From positions 19,773,672-19,837,671 of the forward strand of contig JAQMRL010000015.1 of the NCBI GenBank assembly GCA_035578175.1: DNA of 64,000 nucleotides, in the 5' to 3' direction. A program made the translations under genes and the position numbers. Every line of letters begins with the position of its first letter. Within the stretch, counting starts at the first letter, position 1. This document shows, piece by piece, positions 6,320 through 47,783 of this stretch. The notes beneath the pieces are model-generated. The model was not told the DNA's origin, made no database searches, and saw nothing but the letters and a program-made list of their open reading frames with translations. This stretch comes from Catonia carolina (lineage: Eukaryota > Arthropoda > Insecta > Hemiptera > Achilidae).

Positions 6320-6769
6320 GCCAATATTAATATTGTTAAGGAAAAAATTGTAATTTACATTTTTCCAAATAATTTTGAGATAAACGTAGTTAAAATTTAA
6401 TAAAAATAAATAAAACTAGTGTTGGTAAAAGATTACGTGGAATGCTGACTAAAGAATTAAAATTTTTGTTAAAATTTTAATGATAATATTATATAATATT
6501 AAAAAAATTATGGGTAATTATTTCAAATATTAATAAAATTGATAATTAATAGTATAATGTAAACAAATTAAAGATACTGTAATTAATATTATTTATAAAA
6601 TACATTACTTCAGATTCCGATAACATTTCTAAGAAATACCAGTCTATAGTAAGAAGAAATAATAATAAAAATAAAAATAAAAACAAGAACGAGGGATTTC
6701 TATGACGCAGATGATACGATTATAATAAAACTTTGGCGGGGGTTAGAGAGTTCTTTGTATTTACTTCTC
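6320..6769. other. AT-rich 5' flank of the second gene
   Basis: No coding or repeat similarity was recognised apart from A/T runs and an A-rich tract at 6655-6690. Confidence 0.5.
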
Positions 6770-6854
6770 CCCACCCTTTTACTAGGAACGAACGAACAGC
6801 AACAGAGTGGGAAAGTTGTGAGCGGAGCCAGTTCAGTCTGGATCGATCGTGGCA
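6765..6854 (+). promoter_or_regulatory. 5' UTR with candidate splice acceptor and Inr-like site
   Basis: A pyrimidine-rich tract ending TTTTACTAG/G (AG at 6784-6785) would serve as a 3' splice site of a 5' UTR intron, placing 69 nt of leader before the ATG. Alternatively TTCAGTC (6832-6838) matches the arthropod initiator consensus. The two readings are mutually exclusive for the same transcript, and the sequence does not decide between them. No TATA box is seen at a suitable distance. Confidence 0.35.
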
Positions 6855-9098
6855 ATGAATAAGGTGTTTTTATTGTGCACGTTATGCATACTGCTAGTGT
6901 TATCGGTTTCGTTGATCGACGGAAAACGTTCCGGCGGGCGCGGTTCTGGTAGCGGTAGCAGTGGATTATTCGGTTCCAGAAGAAAACAACCTCAAACTTC
7001 TTCTAACAAGAAACAACAGCAACCTTCTAGAAATCATACGTCAGGCGGAAGTCATGGCGGTTCCAATCAACATTTCCTCGAAAACGAACGTCACCATGAT
7101 ACCAACAATAGAGGACATATCGGTTTCGAACAGTACGGCAAACCATCACAAACCAATCCTGGAATAGGATTCGGTGGTGCCAACAGACCATCAGCTCCTC
7201 CTTCAGGACAAGCTAATCAGGGTCTAGGTGGAGCATTCGGAGGATCAAATTACCCGGCTAAAACACAGAATACTCATGTACAATCTGCACCATACCCTAC
7301 GAACAACAATCCTGGAGGATTTGGAAATAATCCCGGAGGATTTGGAAATGCACCTGGTGGAATACACAACAATCAACCGGGTGGTTTCGGTTCGAATCCA
7401 GTAGGAGGAACACATCATCAACCGGGTGGTTTCGGCTCAAATCCTGCGGGAGGATATCATCAACCAGGAGGTTTCGGCTCAAACCCTGCTGGAGGATATC
7501 ATCAACCAGGAGGTATCGGTTCGAACCCTGCTGGAGGAACTCATTACAGCCAACCAACTGGTGGATTTGGACAACCTGGAGGACATTACAATCAACCAGC
7601 AGGAAGTTTTGGACAACCTGGAGGACATTACAATCAACCAGCAGGTGGTTTTGGACAACCTGGAGGACATTATAATCAACCAGCAGGTGGTTTTGGACAA
7701 AGTGGAGGACATTATAATCAACCTAATTATGGCGGTTCACATTACCCATCTGGAGGATACCCAGTAGGACAATCCGGTGGATTTGGAGGTCATCAGCAAT
7801 ATCCAAACTATGGAGGTGGACACAGTTATAATCCTGGTGGTTATGGTGGTTACAATCCTGGAGGATTTGGCGGCGGACATGGAGGTTACAATCCTGGTGG
7901 ATTCGGGGGCGGCAATTCGTTCGGTCATGGAGGTGGATATGGTGGCGGTGGATTCGGTGGTGGTGGATACGGAGGCGGTATGTACCCAGGAGGTTACAAA
8001 CAAAAAACTGGTCCGGGACTCGGAACTGGTTTACTTGGAGGTGCTGCCGCGGCTTTACCTCTTGGTTTATTATTAGGATACGGTCTTGGTTCCTCATTGT
8101 CTCCTTCACCGATGCACAACAACAACGATGCATTCAATACTTGGTTAAAACAACGAACAGAAGAAAAGAATAAAGAAATCGCAGCAACCAATGGAACAAT
8201 AGCGGCCAATGGAACAACGATTGTTACAGCCACAGGAGAAACAAGAACTGTGAACCAAACTGAACTCATCAGTCAAATCTTGAATGAAACTCAAATGTGT
8301 CCAGGAGGCGCTGGAATTTTGGATGCTTCATACCTGAATACTCTAGTACCTTGTAACATAACGGCAGTAGATTTCAACGCAGTTAATGTAACAGAACCAA
8401 TACAAGAAGACTGTAAATCTTTATCATTAACAGTGGTTCAAGTTAACACCGACACAAGTGAAAACAAAACAATGGTTTTACGTATAAAACAAAACAATGC
8501 GACCGGAACAAATGAGTTCGTTATTTTAACTTACGATTTAGAATTTGTTTCTTGTACCGCACCATTAAATAATCCGGATTCTAAAACATGTGAAACTAAA
8601 TCATTTTTGGCCGAACCTTCAAATATTTTGAACGAAACTTTAACATATCTTCGTACAACAAATGTATCCATTAGTCAATACAATACGACATTAAATTTGA
8701 ATAATGGTTGTGCAGAAGCAGGAGCTTGCGGTCCTGATAGTAAACAACCGAGAAATATAACATCAACTTATATAAACTTTTCAATTTTACCATTTTATCC
8801 AGCACATGTCATGATGTCTCAATGTATGATTTTTAAGACCAATTCATGCGATCCTTCATCGACAACTCCATGTGAAACTCCATTGATAACAACTTTGCAA
8901 ACGATTAATACCAACACAACTTTATCTAAATCTGATTTTGCTAATATAAATTTCGTTTTACATCAGTCGCAAGATATATTTTTGGCGTATTCACCGCCAT
9001 CACCGCCGCCTCCAAAATCACCTGAAGGAAATGCACCAGGTAGTTCAAGCTCCTACGCTGATGGTACCACTACACCTTCATCGGCAGCGCCCATTTGA
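6855..9098 (+). CDS. Secreted Gly-rich repeat protein with prion-like layout
   Basis: An uninterrupted 747-codon frame starts at ATG 6855; the preceding GTG at 6849 is not a plausible eukaryotic start, and the ATG has G at -3. Residues 1-23 form a signal peptide (Leu-rich core, break near Asp-Gly/Lys). A basic, Ser/Gly/Gln-rich segment follows. Residues about 150-380 carry two repeat tiers: units like QPGGFGSNPAGGYH, then four copies of FGQPGGHYNQPAGG, then Gly/Tyr repeats. Residues about 386-416 form a hydrophobic Gly/Ala/Leu segment with an AAAA core ending in GYGLGSSLS. The C-terminal third has 10 Cys (even number, disulfides possible) and about 14 N-glycosylation sequons, then a Pro/Ser/Thr stalk. 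The base composition is clearly richer in GC than the flanks and no repeats intrude, so it is probably under constraint. The gene family is not recognised; similarity to prion/Shadoo proteins is of layout only. Confidence 0.85.
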   Translation: MNKVFLLCTLCILLVLSVSLIDGKRSGGRGSGSGSSGLFGSRRKQPQTSSNKKQQQPSRNHTSGGSHGGSNQHFLENERHHDTNNRGHIGFEQYGKPSQTNPGIGFGGANRPSAPPSGQANQGLGGAFGGSNYPAKTQNTHVQSAPYPTNNNPGGFGNNPGGFGNAPGGIHNNQPGGFGSNPVGGTHHQPGGFGSNPAGGYHQPGGFGSNPAGGYHQPGGIGSNPAGGTHYSQPTGGFGQPGGHYNQPAGSFGQPGGHYNQPAGGFGQPGGHYNQPAGGFGQSGGHYNQPNYGGSHYPSGGYPVGQSGGFGGHQQYPNYGGGHSYNPGGYGGYNPGGFGGGHGGYNPGGFGGGNSFGHGGGYGGGGFGGGGYGGGMYPGGYKQKTGPGLGTGLLGGAAAALPLGLLLGYGLGSSLSPSPMHNNNDAFNTWLKQRTEEKNKEIAATNGTIAANGTTIVTATGETRTVNQTELISQILNETQMCPGGAGILDASYLNTLVPCNITAVDFNAVNVTEPIQEDCKSLSLTVVQVNTDTSENKTMVLRIKQNNATGTNEFVILTYDLEFVSCTAPLNNPDSKTCETKSFLAEPSNILNETLTYLRTTNVSISQYNTTLNLNNGCAEAGACGPDSKQPRNITSTYINFSILPFYPAHVMMSQCMIFKTNSCDPSSTTPCETPLITTLQTINTNTTLSKSDFANINFVLHQSQDIFLAYSPPSPPPPKSPEGNAPGSSSSYADGTTTPSSAAPI

Positions 9099-9176
9099 CA
9101 ATTAGCGCCCAGTAGTTCACTCCTACTGGGCATCACCTTGTTGCTGGCTACACACCTTTTCAACGCTATTAAGTAA
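9096..9176 (+). other. Putative stop read-through extension with GPI-type signal
   Basis: The stop TGA (9096-9098) is followed in frame by CAA TTA, matching the leaky-stop consensus stop-CARYYA known from tobamovirus-type and cellular read-through. The same frame stays open for 25 codons to TAA at 9174-9176. It encodes QLAPSSS followed by a Leu-rich hydrophobic run ending in FNAIK. A hydrophobic C-terminal tail after a Ser/Gly/Ala-rich stalk is what a GPI transamidase signal looks like. Codon composition across 9099-9173 is coding-like and changes abruptly to AT-rich sequence after the TAA. Alternatives: a recent nonsense allele, a base error, or a longer spliced product, since GTAAGT at 9173-9178 overlaps the second stop and resembles a splice donor. 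Confidence 0.6.
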
Positions 9177-9180
9177 GTCA

Positions 9181-9218
9181 TATTTTTATTATTTATTTAT
9201 TTATTTATTTATTTACGT
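9181..9218. repeat. (ATTT)n simple repeat
   Basis: About seven ATTT units lie directly downstream of the second gene, in its likely 3' UTR or intron. Confidence 0.85.
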
Positions 9219-9230
9219 GTTGTTAATTAG

Positions 9231-9334
9231 GTTAGCGGTTCTCAAACTTTTTTGGTGGCGTACCACTTAATTTGTCTTGACATGTTCCCGTACCACCAGT
9301 GGTTCTATCTCAAAATAATTATGTCTAAACGTGG
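9231..9334. mobile_element. hAT-like element fragment, split by a TTAA insertion
   Basis: AGCGGTTCTCAAACTTTTTT followed by a GGCGTACCAC block resembles the terminal repeat of arthropod hAT non-autonomous elements. The partner end was not found. Sequence after 9892 may be its continuation. Confidence 0.35.
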
Positions 9335-9338
9335 TTAA

Positions 9339-9887
9339 CCCTTTATAGGTCTTTGGTAAATATACTTACGACTAGCAATAAGGTCGATTTTTTTAAAAGA
9401 ATAAGCTATGCAGTTGAACCATACTGGCATTTTATGGTTTTATAGATATTCTCTGGTAAGTAGGCTATCCAAATTTTGAAATTAGTGCTCAGCGTCCATT
9501 TACTTCATGAGTTACACGAATGTGGTAAGGATTAATACCATTGTACCCAACCGTGCTGTTTTGTTGTTACTTTTGTACTGTACTTAGAAAATCCAAGTTT
9601 TTACCGGAAAGCAAGCATGAATGCTAATATAAAGTTAAGATAAGTTATTCTACACATTTTTCTGTTGTATAGTACTAAAGTTGTTTTAATAAGAATTATT
9701 ACCACTAAACATTATGTGATTCCTATTTCAATAAACGTTCCTTGGTAAGTATACTTACCACAGCTTAACAAAAAAAAAGAGGAATATCTTACTGTTTTGG
9801 CATTAAAAATACAATATTGAAATCCCTAAAAAAAAATTATTATTTTACACCATGTAATTTCCCCCCGTAGTATTGCCCTATAAAGGG
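9339..9887. mobile_element. TTAA-target (piggyBac-type) MITE 1
   Basis: The ends CCCTTTATAGG and CCTATAAAGGG are inverted repeats flanked by TTAA on both sides (9335-9338, 9888-9891), the target duplication typical of piggyBac-type elements. It is 549 bp long with no ORF. Confidence 0.65.
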
Positions 9888-9891
9888 TTAA

Positions 9892-10189
9892 GGGCACAGA
9901 AGAAGGGGAGGTGCGCGCGTATTCAGGATTCTTGCATTCAGGATTATAATATACAGATTCATAATTAATTTGTTTAGTTTATTTAAAGTTTATTAAACCG
10001 ACACTTTTTTTCACGTGGCCCCTAAATATTATAACCTGCTATCAAAATATATAACTGAACAGAATTAAATTAAATTTAAGAATGGAATACAGAAATTGAT
10101 AATTAATGTCAGAAGGGACAACATGGAAGTGATGCTAAATAAAACACAAAGTTAACTGTGAGATCACTTACCATATTTTTTGTGGTAAA
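9892..10189. other. No recognised feature
   Basis: AT-rich sequence with a short GC-rich patch (GGTGCGCGCG, about 9911). Nothing coding was recognised. Confidence 0.4.
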
Positions 10190-10191
10190 TA

Positions 10192-11281
10192 CAGTGGAAC
10201 CCCGCTAATCCGAAAACCCGCTTAATCCGAACCCGTTTTGACCCCCAAAAAATTAAAAAAATATTACATTAAAATAAAAAAATTTTACTTGCGGAAACAA
10301 AAAGTAGTATGAATTCAGTACTGTACATATTATGGATAGCGTACCACTACGCTATGGAGGCAATCACGTCAAATTTGTTGGGAAACACGGTAAAAAATAA
10401 AATAAACTAAATAAGTTTGTAAAACATTTCTGTAAGTTTTTTAATTTTTTCACAACAAAATTATATAATTTTTGTATTACTAATTTAGTAATTTGCCCAT
10501 AACGGACAAGTGGAGTGTCAAATTATTTACACTCACTCTGTTCGTTGCAGGGCTAAAATAAATAGTTCTGTTTCTTATCACATGGTCAGCCAATAATTTG
10601 ACTGAATCATTTAAGAACAGAAGAGGTAGAGGTGTAAAAGACACTAATCAGAGTTATCTCCTCTGAAAGTAATGAATTTCATTATACAGCCAGACCCTGT
10701 GGTGAATGAAGTGAAGGTGTCATTTGCAGAGTGGAAAATGTGCTTTTCAGAGGGCCCGGCATGCTGATAAGCGTACTTTTGCACTCAGTGAGGAAGGCAG
10801 TGGTAAACCACCTCACTCCTCGTTTTACTTAGTAAAACCTCTACAGGTTCAAACCAACCTTTTGGCTGATGACCTAAACAACAATTTAGTAATACAAATA
10901 TAATTTATAATAATTATATAATTTATAATTTAGCCGGCGACTGTCAATGACCTTCACGCTTGTAAACGAACAAAAACTATTGGAATCGCTGCGTCGGGCA
11001 GAGGGGCAGTTCTGTAGTTCGTAATTACTGTAGGTAGTGTTTTAAACATTTTTGTTTTTCTGTTTTAAATGGCTAGAGAAGTTTATTTAATTTTTTTAAT
11101 ACCTTTATCAGTATGTGGTTACTAGTTCAGTAGTCTATTAATGTTTCCAGCATTATGCCTAATATAACATGTAATAGGTACATTTTATAAATGTTTCTTG
11201 GAAAAACCCGGATAATCCGAACTTTCTGCCGATCCGAACGGGGTTCGGTCCCAATTAGTTCGGATTAGCGGGGTTGGACTG
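10192..11281. mobile_element. pogo/Tigger-like element 1, non-autonomous
   Basis: The terminal inverted repeats CAGTGGAACCCCGCTAATCC and, on the other strand, CAGTCCAACCCCGCTAATCC begin with CAGT and are flanked by TA, the pogo/Tigger signature. No transposase frame is left. A B element is nested inside. Without it the element would be about 700 bp. Confidence 0.75.
10493..10882 (+). mobile_element. B-family retroelement, full-length-like
   Basis: It begins near TTGCCCATAAC and ends GACCTAAACAACA. The 11-bp direct repeat AATTTAGTAAT flanks it (10482-10492, 10883-10893). There are no inverted ends and no ORF. A tRNA head is not evident, so the family is either an unusual SINE or the 3' end of a LINE. 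It is inserted in Tigger element 1. Confidence 0.75.
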
Positions 11282-11558
11282 TAGTTTAAAAAATTAGTGA
11301 AATAATGTTTTTTTTTTTACATATCCTGGCACATGGTTTTTTTAACCATAGTTGGACATGTCAATTTCTACAGCCTAGGTTATTAGAATGAATGTGATAA
11401 TAGTAGACAAATGGGTGTGTATATAATACACTTTAATATTAAAAATTGTATTATTTTATTTTGAAAATAAAGTAGGTATTATTTTTTAATAAATCGCATC
11501 TTCGTAATTATCGTTTATTATTGGGTATGGAACGTTATGTTTAGACTTGTAATTTCTA

Positions 11559-11629
11559 GACGTTAGGAATCGAACCCGGTACCTTCCGTTTTGTAGGCTA
11601 ACGCGTTAACCACTTCACCAAAGAGACGG
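11559..11629 (-). mobile_element. tRNA-like SINE head
   Basis: The minus strand has TGGTGAAGTGGTTAACGCGT (A box) and GGGTTCGATTCC (a good B box). The stems are too imperfect for a functional tRNA. Confidence 0.45.
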
Positions 11630-11779
11630 TCAGTTAATTATTTTTAATTTAAAAAAATATGATTTATTGATTAAAAAGCTAGCCTTCTAGAATGTTCCAG
11701 AAATTTCTAAACAGTTAACACAATAGCCTATTAAAAACATAAACATTAAGGAGTGTGAGTACAGTTATTTATAAAAAAG

Positions 11780-12610
11780 TCTGGTGTGAAACACTCACAC
11801 AACTTTCTCTTGCCAGTGCAAATAATGACCAATATAACCTAAAATTAGTAATAAAATATTAGAAATCAACTAACCTCAAAAAACATAACCTTATTTTAAT
11901 CATGAGTGAAAGACGCAAAATGAAAATCGACCTCAGTTTGGCTTAAAAATACGGATAATCACTCTTTCACGCTAAACTAGGCTCTGTAGAGAAAAATGCT
12001 CTAAATAAAAGTTTAGATCTTTTAACTTCCTGTTAATTTAATTATACACTTTTGTCGTAAAATGCATAATAAGGCTGAAATCTTTAAAAAATTGATTTTT
12101 TACACGTTTCGTGAGAAAATAAAACAGGAAATCGCTAATTACCGCTAAACTAAGCATTATACAAAAAAATGTTGGAAATAAAAGTTGTAGGATTTTAAAT
12201 TCTCTACAACTTTTATTACTGTATATAGCTAGGCTACATTTTTGCGCTAAAATGCATAATAAACCCACAATATTAAAAAACAATTTCTTTACGTGAAAAC
12301 AGCCTCTTCAAGAATTTAAGCAGACATGACGGCTACCCAATCTTGTAGAGTAATTATAAAAAATGAAGTAAATGAGGGATTTAAAAAAAAAAATCGTAGG
12401 ACCCGTTTTTGAAAAAAAACCCAAAAAAGTGAAAAATTACACAAATAAACTACTACTTCCGGTTGACCGATTTTGACGAAAATGTTCGTGTCGGGTCCGG
12501 TTGTGGTGTGTAACGTAAGTTTCAAGTTTCAAGTACGTACGAGTTACGTTCTTGAGAAATTCTGTTCACACACACACGCACACGCCCACGCACACGCGCA
12601 CGCGCGCGCG

Positions 12611-17877: not shown

Positions 17878-18518
17878 CGAGGGTTATCCAGAAAATAACC
17901 TCCGTTTGAAATAAAAAGTAAACGAGTGAAGATACAAAACTCGTACATATTAAAACTACAGTTTTTCTCTATTTTTCGACATAGTCGCCAAACAGATTTA
18001 AGCACTTGTCGTACCTTGGAACAGTCTTTGAAATACCCTCTGCATAAAAATCTGCCGCCTGTGAATGTAGCCAACCATTCACGGCGTTTTGAAGCTCTTC
18101 GTCATTGGCGAACCGCTGAGATGCAAGCCACCGCTTCATGTTCGGGAACAGGTGAAAGTCACTAGGAGCCAAGTCCGGGCTGTATGGGAGATGATCGAAA
18201 ACGTCCCATTTAAACTTGGCCAAAAGTTCATTTGTTCTTCGAGCTGTATTAGGGCGAGCGTTGTCATGCACAAACACAACACCACGTGTCAGAAGGCCAC
18301 GATGCTTGTTTTGGGTCGCTCTTCTTAGTCTGTTTAAAGTTTCACAGTAGACAGCAGAAGTGATAGTCGTTCCTCGTTCCATAAAATCAACGAGTAAGAT
18401 GAGAAAGATGTTGTGTTTGTGAGAAACTGTAGTTTTAATACGTATATAATAAAGTTTTTGTATCTTAACTCGTTTACTTTTTATTTCAAAACGGAGGTTA
18501 TTTTCTGGAATACCCTTG
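17878..18518. mobile_element. mariner element 1, internally deleted
   Basis: The ends carry inverted repeats of about 55 bp (AGAAAATAACCTCCGTTT and its inverse, continuing into AAAAAGTAAACGAGT). TA dinucleotides flank both sides. At 641 bp it is half the length of an autonomous mariner. The missing part is the N-terminal DNA-binding half of the transposase. Confidence 0.85.
17969..18391 (-). pseudogene. mariner transposase, catalytic C-terminal fragment
   Basis: The frame reads to a natural stop at 17969. It has HDNARP with the second catalytic Asp and SPDLAPSDFHLF with the third, 34 residues between them, which is the D34D spacing of mariner. The helix-turn-helix region and first Asp are absent. 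Residues upstream of about 18391 on this strand are not transposase, so no functional enzyme can be made. Confidence 0.85.
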
Positions 18519-18534
18519 TATATACCCTTTTTGG

Positions 18535-18605
18535 AGTCGACCTGACCGTGAATCAAATCCGGGACCCCTTATGTAGAAACCAGTTACGCTGATCTCTGCA
18601 CCAAA
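18535..18605 (-). mobile_element. tRNA-like SINE head (degenerate)
   Basis: The minus strand has a B-box-like GGATTTGATTC and an A-box-like TTTGGTGCAGAGATCAGCG. It adjoins the mariner element. Confidence 0.35.
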
Positions 18606-21728: not shown

Positions 21729-22666
21729 CGAGGTGTGGCTATTAAATAACGAGACTAACGTAAAACAATTTATTTTTACTTTATACATAATCACTTATTG
21801 TCACCTTCAATATACACTCCTTCTCTATCCCTACACCGCTCCATGCGAATTTTCCATTGTTGGAAACAGTGCTGGAAGTCATCTTCTGTCAGCTCCTTCA
21901 GGACACGTGCCGATCAAAAGTGTTTGAAATGAAGCTCGCAAAAATGTTTGTACTGACACTTTGTACGCGATTGAAAATGACCCAAATTTTTTGGAAACGA
22001 TAATAACATTAGATGAAACGTGGTTTTTTATTTATGATCCGGAAACGAAGCACCAATCCATGCACTGGTAGAGCCGAACTTCACCGGAACCAAAAAAGCT
22101 CGAAGGAGCAAGTCAAAATTTAAAGCAATGATGATTGTTTTTTTTTTGATATCCATGGGATTGTGTATTTTTACTGGGTTCCTGAAGGTCAAACAATTAA
22201 TCAATATTACTACCTTGAGGTACTTTCTAAACAACGTAAAAGAGTAAGGAAAAAACGCCCCGATATGTGGAAGGACAAATCATGGGTTCTCCACCAAGAT
22301 AATGCGCCAGCTCATTCCGCGTTATCTGTCAAGAGGTTCCTAGCTAAGTACAGCATCTCAGTGTTAGAACATCCACGTTATTCACCAGATCTTGCATCAT
22401 GTGACTTCTGTCTGTTCCCTAAGGTGAAATCTGCATTAAAAGGAGCAAGATTTGAGTCTGTGGAAGCTGTTAAAGAGAAAGCGGCACGTGCCTGAAGGAG
22501 CTGATAGAAAATGACTTCCAGCACTGTTTCCAACAATGGAAAATTCGCACGGAGCGTTGTAGGGTTAGAGAAGGAGTGTATATTGAAGGTGACAATAAGT
22601 GATTATATATAAAATAAAAATAAAATTTTTATAACGTCAGTCTCGTTATTTAAGAGCCACACCTCG
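21729..22666. mobile_element. mariner element 2 with long inverted ends
   Basis: The ends CGAGGTGTGGCTATTAAATA and its inverse are flanked by TA. Inverted similarity extends about 180 bp inward on each side (to about 21909 and from about 22480), far longer than the roughly 30 bp usual for mariner. A pseudogene fills the middle. Confidence 0.85.
21990..22495 (+). pseudogene. mariner transposase, broken
   Basis: LDETW, with the first catalytic Asp, is followed by an in-frame stop at about 22072 and a frameshift in the T run near 22145. The frame then continues (22163-22495) with HQDNAPAHSA (second Asp) and SPDLASCDFCLFP (third Asp), again spaced D34D. The N-terminal DNA-binding domain is missing. 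Confidence 0.85.
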
Positions 22667-43960: not shown

Positions 43961-44429
43961 TGACTAAATGAGACTCTTATGAAATACTCCATTTATGGAA
44001 AATTTAGCACCATTATATAATTTAGTACCTTATCGTCTCCTCATAAACCAACGTGTACCGGGCTACATACAAATTAATTTGTGTTATTAATTTTTATATT
44101 TTATCCTAAAAGTATAATTTTTTTTTGAATGATCGGATTATAATAATTTAAACTTGACATGCTTTCTGGAACACTTTTGTTGTAAAATCATCGATTTTTC
44201 ACATAAGGTATTAAGAGACCTATGATTTTCATGTCAAACATTTTTTCTACAACGCTTTACTAACGGGTGATTCAAAAAGAGCGCCGGTTTTTAAACGGCT
44301 GGTAAATTTTTGTTTATCGGTTGGCAACATTGTTAGACCTCATTTCTATTTCGGAGAACATTCCGATTGACGATTCAGTTGTAGTTTCTCTTGTTCGCAG
44401 TGTAGTACTCTCGCAGTCTGTGTCTAACC

Positions 44430-44849
44430 ATGGAGAAGTTTACTATTGCACAACGAGTGTTAATCGTCAAAACATTTTACCAGAGTGGAGAGAGTTATGC
44501 GGCTACTGTCAGGCGACTTCGCGGTACTCTAGGACGTAATGAAGCACCGAATGAATCAACAGTTCGCAGGCTCATGAAAAAGTTTTTTGAGACGGGTTCA
44601 ACAGTCGACCTTAAAAGTTCTGGACGTCGTCGTTCTGGCCGAACTGAGCAGAACGTTGCGTTGGTTCGTGACAGTGTGGCTGTTAGCCCAGCAAAATCAA
44701 TACGTCGCCGTTCTCAACAATTGGGTTTACGATGTTCTTCTGTACGGAGAATTCTTCGGTACGATCTCCAATATCACCCGTATAAAATTCAGTTGACGCA
44801 ACATTTGAAAGTGGCAGACCACCAGAAGAGACGACAGTTTGTTGACTAG
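44430..44849 (+). pseudogene. mariner-like transposase, N-terminal DNA-binding part
   Basis: ATG at 44430 opens 139 codons: MEKFTIAQRVLIVKTFYQSG is the first helix-turn-helix. RNEAPNESTVRRLMKKFFETG and the following RRRSGRTEQ linker lead into a second helix-turn-helix (SIRRRSQQLGLRCSSVRRIL). It stops at TAG 44847-44849, right at the deletion junction. The family is the insect mariner-like group with this tandem HTH. DNA binding could in principle survive, but catalysis could not. Confidence 0.8.
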
Positions 44850-46763: not shown

Positions 46764-47040
46764 TTTTTAATAAAACGTTGTCTATTAAGCCTACATGTTA
46801 TGATAGAATGATTAAAACGGAAATTTGTGGGTTTAAGGAGATTTTAAACCAGTGTTTTTAGTAAAATTAATTTGTTGTCAAGCTATTTTAATGCTACTAT
46901 ATAAATTTGTTATAATTACACGGAAATTAAAGTTATGTAGGTGTATTGTGTTAGCATATAATGAATACTGATAGTGTTATTATAATGTAGTACAAATTTC
47001 AAAAGTGAAAAATTATTGACAATATTTAATATGCAATGCA

Positions 47041-47783
47041 TTGCTCAATGCATTTGTATTTGCGGATGACGTGTGGATCATACAGGATAGTGAAGATGAG
47101 CTTCAAAGAGCAGTTTATGTTTTAAATGATTTATGCAAAAAGTATAATTTACGAATTTCGGTTACTAAATCAAAGGTTATGACATTCAGAGGGAAGTATC
47201 CCACTCGTTCGAAGCTTGTTTTAGACAATGTAGTATTAGATCAAGTGTCTCACTATAACTATCTGGGCTGCGATGCGAGCTTTGATCGGGACTTGGATGT
47301 CGAAAATGAAATAAATAAATTTCAAGCTATTTGTGGTACCATATACAGGACAGATGCTATGTCCTATCCGTACTGTACAATGGGATGGAGGCTTGGACAA
47401 TGAAGAAGATTGATGAAAAGAGACTGGATGCATTTGAAATGTGGCTGTACCGGCGAATTCTGAGGATTTCATGGGTGGAAAAGATGACGAATGTGGAGGT
47501 GTTGAGACGTATGCATAAAGAAAGAGAAGTACTATTAAAAGTGAAGAAAAGAAAATTATTGTATATGGGACATGTCATGAGGGGAGAAGAAAATAAAATA
47601 TTACAAGTGATTGTCCAGGGGAAAATCCAAGGAAAGAGATCCTTGGGAAGAAGACGAAAATCCTGGCTGAAAAACCTAAGAGATTGGTATGGTTGCAGCA
47701 ACAACGAATTGTTTAGGGCTGTGACATCAAAGATAAAAATCGCTCTGATGATTGCCAACCTTCGAAGCGGAGATGGCACCTGA
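47041..47783 (+). pseudogene. LINE reverse transcriptase, C-terminal half, frameshifted
   Basis: The first frame (47041-47403) has LNAFVFADDVW, the FADD catalytic box of non-LTR reverse transcriptases, then ISVTKSKVM and YNYLGC of the thumb. A frameshift near 47340 leads to the second frame, ending at TGA 47781-47783. That frame has GMEAWTMKKIDEKRLDAFEM, LYRRILRISW and RRKSWLKNLRDWYG, typical of insect LINE ORF2 C-termini. The 5' two thirds (endonuclease, fingers) are absent, as expected from 5' truncation. GAAGAAGAA follows immediately. Confidence 0.85.

Follow-up and report, generated by a model that had tools for sequence, protein, structure and literature searches.

Stop codon readthrough is abundant in Pancrustacea, where the function of most of the resulting extensions is reported as not known (Jungreis 2016, PMC5100048). 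According to the same paper, the readthrough stops of flies and mosquitoes prefer TGA with a following C, and a 3′ RNA structure is predicted for 9-10% of their readthrough candidates, compared to <1% of other transcripts. Such extensions have been reported to carry nuclear, peroxisomal, prenylation, and transmembrane signals (Dunn 2013, PMC3840789), and stimulation of readthrough has been ascribed to a 3′ stem-loop or RNA structure in Drosophila hdc and kelch (both genes are named in PMC5100048, PMC4132726, and PMC3022353). Another described ingredient is the hexamer CARYYA, which follows UAG in Tobacco mosaic virus and other plant viruses and which, behind UGA, gives ~15% readthrough in a mammalian OPRL1 reporter context (Loughran 2014, PMC4132726). 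Leaky stops are also described among the means of obtaining display and secretion of engineered antibodies at once (PMC12101391). Here, we analyze a gene of the achilid hemipteran Catonia carolina, located in a stretch of 64,000 nucleotides (GenBank assembly GCA_035578175.1, contig JAQMRL010000015.1, positions 19,773,672 to 19,837,671, forward strand; hereafter "the window"), in which the TGA at 9096-9098 is probably a programmed readthrough stop that yields mostly secreted and some membrane-anchored protein, the anchor likewise probably being of the glycosylphosphatidylinositol (GPI) type.

Judged by its sequence, this gene appears to work like the known insect readthrough genes, and the leaky stop context, predicted 3′ RNA structure, and shared stop position of such genes are found in it. 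With the reported fly and mosquito genes, it shares a TGA followed by C, a stop position common to several species, predicted RNA structure in the first 100 nt behind the stop, and a short extension with a putative targeting signal. This signal is GPI-like, whereas those reported for the fly and mosquito extensions are peroxisomal, nuclear, prenylation, or transmembrane; the term GPI is absent from the main text of both PMC5100048 and PMC3840789. The stop followed by CARYYA recalls the tobamovirus-type context as described, from which the window gene differs in having UGA, in being a cellular insect gene, and in carrying a hairpin close behind. As in hdc and kelch, for which 3′ structure near the stop is reported, the gene belongs to an insect; we know of no membrane-anchor signals in the extensions of those two genes. 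The arrangement also resembles engineered leaky-stop display as it is described, in that both forms would arise from a leaky stop placed between the secreted part and its membrane anchor, although the display designs are man-made and the window gene is apparently natural. A search of titles and abstract openings on readthrough with GPI or membrane anchoring, which left most subscription literature uncovered, returned no natural GPI anchor created by readthrough. If our reading is true, this gene would be the first natural case, within the literature searched, in which readthrough determines how much protein is secreted and how much is GPI-anchored, and it would be a compact counterpart in nature of the leaky-stop designs for antibody display and secretion. 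Its extension would have a readable purpose, namely membrane anchoring, and an apparently anchored paralog would serve as a natural control.

The first open reading frame (ORF) of the gene, as judged by inspection, runs from a signal-peptide-like segment through Gly/Pro/Asn/Gln-rich repeats and a hydrophobic segment to a cysteine-containing C-terminal domain with many N-glycosylation motifs. The preliminary description of this locus had reported that the TGA is followed in frame by CAA TTA, 25 sense codons, and TAA; this was confirmed, with CAA and TTA included in the 25. The leaky stop context of readthrough genes (TGA, C as the next base, or CARYYA) is thus present at 9096. Separately, a direct repeat, AGCGCCCA, occurs at 9086-9093 and 9104-9111, in frame with a spacing of 18 nt, and encloses the stop together with the greater part of the CARYYA hexamer; it may be the trace of a duplication or due to chance.

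A further element, overlooked in the preliminary description, is a hairpin that lies just downstream of the hexamer. For the 37-40 nt past the TGA, the folding energy was -16.3 kcal/mol. When compared with dinucleotide shuffles, equal stability was reached by 0/1000 for 9099-9138 (z -5.5), by 16/1000 for 9099-9148 (z -2.6), and by 0/1000 for 9099-9170 (z -3.8). Over the 100 nt of 9084-9183, only a small excess of stability was seen (z -1.4, 16/200 shuffles), and the signal therefore sits in the hairpin itself. Within the gene, an energy as low as this was found only in folding segments that contain the hairpin (12 overlapping segments of 2282). Perfect 9-bp stems that contain at least five G or C and enclose a loop of 3-10 nt occur at seven distinct sites on the plus strand of the whole window, including this one (15 overlapping starts). 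To ask whether the tail peptide alone forces the hairpin, we resampled the first 24 tail codons synonymously. Using the codon usage of the gene and its paralog, 0/5000 resampled sequences reached -16.3 kcal/mol (mean -2.9, SD 2.05), while with uniform codon usage, 15/5000 did so. Three successive leucines at the end of the loop and in the 3′ arm are encoded by CTC, CTA, and CTG, codons that together make up 12/84 Leu codons in the frames of both genes. No exact complement of at least 4 nt to the loop, of the kind that could form a pseudoknot, was present in the next 100 nt. The predicted stem provides the 3′ RNA structure looked for in readthrough genes, a feature of a minority of known cases, and as a modeled element adjoining the stop, it strengthens the recoding reading.

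To assess how unusual this combination is, we surveyed 9740 TGA triplets with enough downstream sequence on both strands of 262,000 bases, made up of the window and twenty neighboring pieces of the same genome (71 bases were counted twice). CARYYA followed 21 of the 9740 triplets, an extension of 18-45 codons with an uncharged hydrophobic end followed 37, and a folding energy of -14 kcal/mol or lower in the next 37 nt was found for 35. All three features came together at a single TGA, that at 9096, while every other TGA had at most one of them.

We then looked at relatives of the gene. Protein searches, two of which scored only the candidates sharing most words (7995 and 7988), returned four sequences, all from planthoppers, and the gene was found only in planthoppers in the searches made. 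These were Lycorma delicatula LOC142324204 isoform X1 (P0001; 67% identity over 83% of the searched part), a Laodelphax striatellus protein (P0002; 52% identity over 74%), the more distant Lycorma isoform X2 of the same locus (P0003), and a truncated Nilaparvata lugens model (P0004), which is uninformative on the stop. At the protein level, the exact stop column is common to the window gene, Lycorma X1, and Laodelphax, i.e., to 2/2 X1-type orthologs with a complete C-terminus. The C-termini read PSSAAPI in the window gene, KSSAVNI in Lycorma X1, and KSSATTI in Laodelphax, with both orthologs ending after Ile; the two belong to different superfamilies, Lycorma to Fulgoroidea and Laodelphax to Delphacoidea. 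The preliminary description had named a sense codon here in orthologs as the sign of a nonsense allele or an error; both complete orthologs were found to stop at this column instead. A nonsense allele or assembly error was thereby rejected, and the stop is therefore old rather than a local nonsense allele.

Two observations concern the gene models themselves. Lycorma X1 and X2, although annotated as isoforms of one gene, are only 42% identical over 414 aligned columns, and the two look like paralogous ORFs that have been lumped together, perhaps through shared noncoding exons. The Nilaparvata model, named NUP214-like and with an unrelated N-terminus, apparently represents this gene family in truncated or chimeric form.

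The Catonia genome (1.47 Gb, 142 contigs searched) yielded one paralog, L003, which lies ~107 kb away on the opposite strand and has the same layout. With Lycorma X2 as the genome query, we recovered the same two genes; the only other match was weak (E 2.9), lay in an acidic ORF, and was taken as chance and not as a further paralog. The L003 frame is uninterrupted at the place of the stop (...YTESAATTVNILPVTIVLMLIFSSSG then TAA): at about the position where the window gene stops, it reads in frame into a hydrophobic tail, ...SAATTVNILPVTIVLMLIF. The VNI of L003 pairs by eye with the VNI that precedes the stop in Lycorma, while MAFFT sets the NIL of L003 just past the stop column; under either alignment, the GPI-like tail belongs to this gene family. 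At the equivalent place, L003 folds with only -1.3 kcal/mol and has no hairpin, as expected if L003 needs no readthrough. A full-consensus splice donor, AAG/GTAAGT, follows shortly past the L003 stop codon. In a six-row tree, L003 grouped with Lycorma X2 (89/93), with long branches flagged; this grouping collapsed when the partial Nilaparvata row was removed, and the tree is poorly resolved.

GPI signals consist of an attachment site, a spacer, and a terminal hydrophobic stretch that is not followed by a charged tail. In the extension of the window gene, the uncharged hydrophobic end was measured and has a Leu-rich core of 14 residues, LLLGITLLLATHLF, at 9120-9161, while the SSA site and the spacer were recognized by eye and the exact end is uncertain. 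The conserved TTTxSSAxxI block before the stop would look, by inspection, like a GPI attachment site. Across the window gene, Lycorma X1, and Laodelphax, this block has 7/10 invariant columns, compared to 5/26 in the preceding linker (Fisher p 0.007, with the block boundaries set after viewing the alignment). Since such a tail follows so few TGAs in the survey, its persistence beyond a stop common to these species is difficult to account for unless it is translated, and argues for selection. Around 9173, the G+C content drops from 47% to 20%; given this fall and the GTAAGT at 9173-9178, the frame may actually end in a different exon. The features of the locus are listed in Table 1.

Table 1. 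Features of the candidate readthrough gene and its paralog (window positions unless stated otherwise)
Feature	Position	Strand	Basis or remark
First ORF, 747 codons, predicted secreted G/P/N/Q-rich protein	6855..9095	+	ATG start placed by inspection
Signal-peptide-like N-terminus	6855..6923	+	Judged by eye; ortholog N-termini alike
Conserved Gly/Ala/Leu-rich hydrophobic segment between repeats and C-terminal domain	8010..8099	+	Ortholog alignment
Possible mini-intron, CAG/GTAGTT ... CAATTAG/CG	9040..9105	+	Donor 7/9 consensus, acceptor 7/12 pyrimidines
TTTPSSAAPI block before the stop, with SSA as candidate GPI attachment (omega) region	9066..9095	+	Conservation and inspection
TGA, candidate readthrough stop	9096..9098	+	Stop column common to Lycorma X1 and Laodelphax
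CAATTA, exact fit to CARYYA readthrough hexamer	9099..9104	+	
25-codon extension QLAPSSSLLLGITLLLATHLFNAIK, GPI-signal-like, uncharged hydrophobic end	9099..9173	+	CAA TTA and 23 further sense codons
Hairpin, perfect 9-bp stem and 7-nt loop, starting 8 nt past the stop	9107..9131 (9107-9115 with 9123-9131)	+	Folding
GTAAGT, candidate donor hexamer that overlaps the second stop	9173..9178	+	7/9 donor consensus positions
TAA, second stop in the genomic reading	9174..9176	+	
L003, paralog with the same layout	L003:1342-3054 (C53:19890154-19891863)	-	Own-genome search

The cis elements, three in number, are computed results, as are the position of the shared stop and the tail of the paralog, and together they suggest how the locus might operate. 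Most ribosomes would terminate at the TGA and release a secreted protein, while a fraction would read on, favored by the UGA itself, by CAAUUA as the next hexamer, and by the hairpin that starts 8 nt past the stop. Readthrough would insert an amino acid at the stop and add the 25-residue tail, completing a GPI-anchor signal whose attachment site lies in the pre-stop SSA, whose spacer spans the stop, and whose end is the uncharged hydrophobic stretch. GPI transamidase would then cut at the SSA. Because this cut precedes the stop position, the amino acid supplied by readthrough would go with the discarded propeptide, and the mature protein would bear no sign of it. The proportion of shed to tethered protein would depend on how leaky the stop is. 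From the computed features, we infer readthrough, its level, GPI attachment, and the shed/tethered ratio. The observation is well above chance, and the gene is a strong candidate for control of membrane tethering by programmed readthrough. In its fullest form, the proposal is of a natural traceless switch between secretion and tethering, in which a leaky UGA, CARYYA, and a hairpin split a GPI signal, termination alone decides whether this planthopper-specific protein of prion-like layout is shed or tied, and the duplicate gene is hard-wired as anchored; we give this somewhat better than an even chance.

Several points weigh against programmed readthrough at this TGA. Its rarity in the survey is somewhat flattered, since the cut-offs were chosen knowing this case. 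Lycorma X2 backs the shared stop only loosely: it ends SATSTNI, and its Ile meets the stop column in one of three alignments because gaps shift its end in the other two. Likewise, the L003 tail is joined to the stop column via gaps. Pattern searches for related DNA gave 59 matches in viral_contigs and 68 in genome_contigs, of which none were confirmed, and the comparison of the extension is accordingly limited to the L003 tail. The signal peptide and the omega site were assigned by eye, and the end of the tail may differ from that given here because the GTAAGT donor hexamer overlaps the final TAA. Little readthrough in test systems has also been reported for several hairpin-bearing candidates (PMC4132726, PMC5100048), among them two RNA-structure candidates in PMC4132726.

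One alternative to readthrough is splicing, since an in-frame mini-intron, though weak, could have the same effect: removal of 66 nt in some mRNAs would join GNAP to APSSSLLLG... and give the GPI form, while the retained form would stop at the TGA and be secreted. An in-frame GT...AG pair does exist, with donor CAGGTAGTT matching seven of nine consensus positions and an acceptor ending in CAATTAG. However, the donor is mismatched at +4 and +5, and the pyrimidine tract is poor (7/12). On the plus strand of the window, 122/3772 GT and 1167/3154 AG score equally well or better; with so many equally good sites, such a pair near the stop is unsurprising. Splicing would also delete the conserved TTTxSSAxxI block and leave unexplained both the CARYYA hexamer and a hairpin encoded by the choice of synonymous codons, and we regard this alternative as unlikely. 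The anchor itself might be of another kind, the extended form being a type I transmembrane protein instead of a GPI-anchored one. The 14-residue Leu-rich core fits either anchor, sequence alone cannot fully separate the two, and a cytosolic tail could follow if the GTAAGT at 9173 is a used donor. Against this, the core is short, inspection revealed a single Lys and no basic or hydrophilic cytosolic segment, and small residues, SSA, precede the spacer in a design similar to that of L003; a transmembrane form thus seems improbable. The preliminary description had proposed a secreted protein with a minority GPI form, and the shared stop, the paralog tail, and the hairpin now support it in part, but the choice of GPI over a plain membrane anchor was made by inspection, and the mini-intron offers another possible route to the same two forms.

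It could also be that the tail is a dead relic, in which an ancestral constitutive GPI tail like that of L003 was cut off when a stop arose in the lineage, so that the protein is now secreted only and the tail is decaying. The presence of the tail without a stop in L003 does make the tail probably old. Nevertheless, the stop is common to Lycorma X1 and Laodelphax, so on this reading the tail must have kept an open frame and its hydrophobic character over a long time without selection, although a tail of this kind follows only 37/9740 TGAs by chance, and the hairpin and CARYYA would both have to be coincidence; we consider a relic quite doubtful. Finally, UGA is the codon used in selenocysteine insertion and in UGA-to-UGG editing, and the stop might be recoded in one of these ways. 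In 6500-12000, three Rfam matches were obtained at E up to 10, and no selenocysteine insertion sequence (SECIS) element was among them; the selenocysteine reading was rejected on this absence. As for adenosine-to-inosine (A-to-I) editing, the fold predicted for 9084-9183 does not place the UGA inside a long duplex, and a 5′ G disfavors such editing. Recoding by either route appears highly improbable, and readthrough into a GPI-type tail is the reading we retain.

The protein could not be assigned to a described family. In Pfam, no family was found for the window protein at E up to 1, prion models included, and none for the Laodelphax protein or L003, while Lycorma X1 and X2 had one unrelated match each, below its cut-off. 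A profile search for solved relatives likewise gave none at E up to 1. AlphaFold2, run on five sequences, returned mostly beta strands with a mean predicted local distance difference test score (pLDDT) of 50.4, from which no claim is drawn, and Foldseek found no match in the PDB at E ≤ 0.001 (best 0.016). Vertebrate prion protein and Shadoo are built in the order of signal peptide, Gly-rich repeats, hydrophobic segment, glycosylated part, and GPI signal. The window gene appears to have the same order of segments as this layout but shows no sequence relation to these proteins by Pfam, and only here would anchoring be optional.

Upstream of the coding exon, at window positions 6751-6785, a pyrimidine-rich run ends in TAG, which suggests a 3′ splice site and hence a noncoding exon further upstream. 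Elsewhere in the window, fragments matching Pfam Transposase_1 occur at 17972-18568 (minus strand) and 22124-22492 (plus strand) and are presumably of the mariner type. A helix-turn-helix DUF4817 match, which we take to be transposon-associated, lies at 44406-44846 (plus strand), and a reverse-transcriptase fragment lies at 47020-47400 (plus strand).

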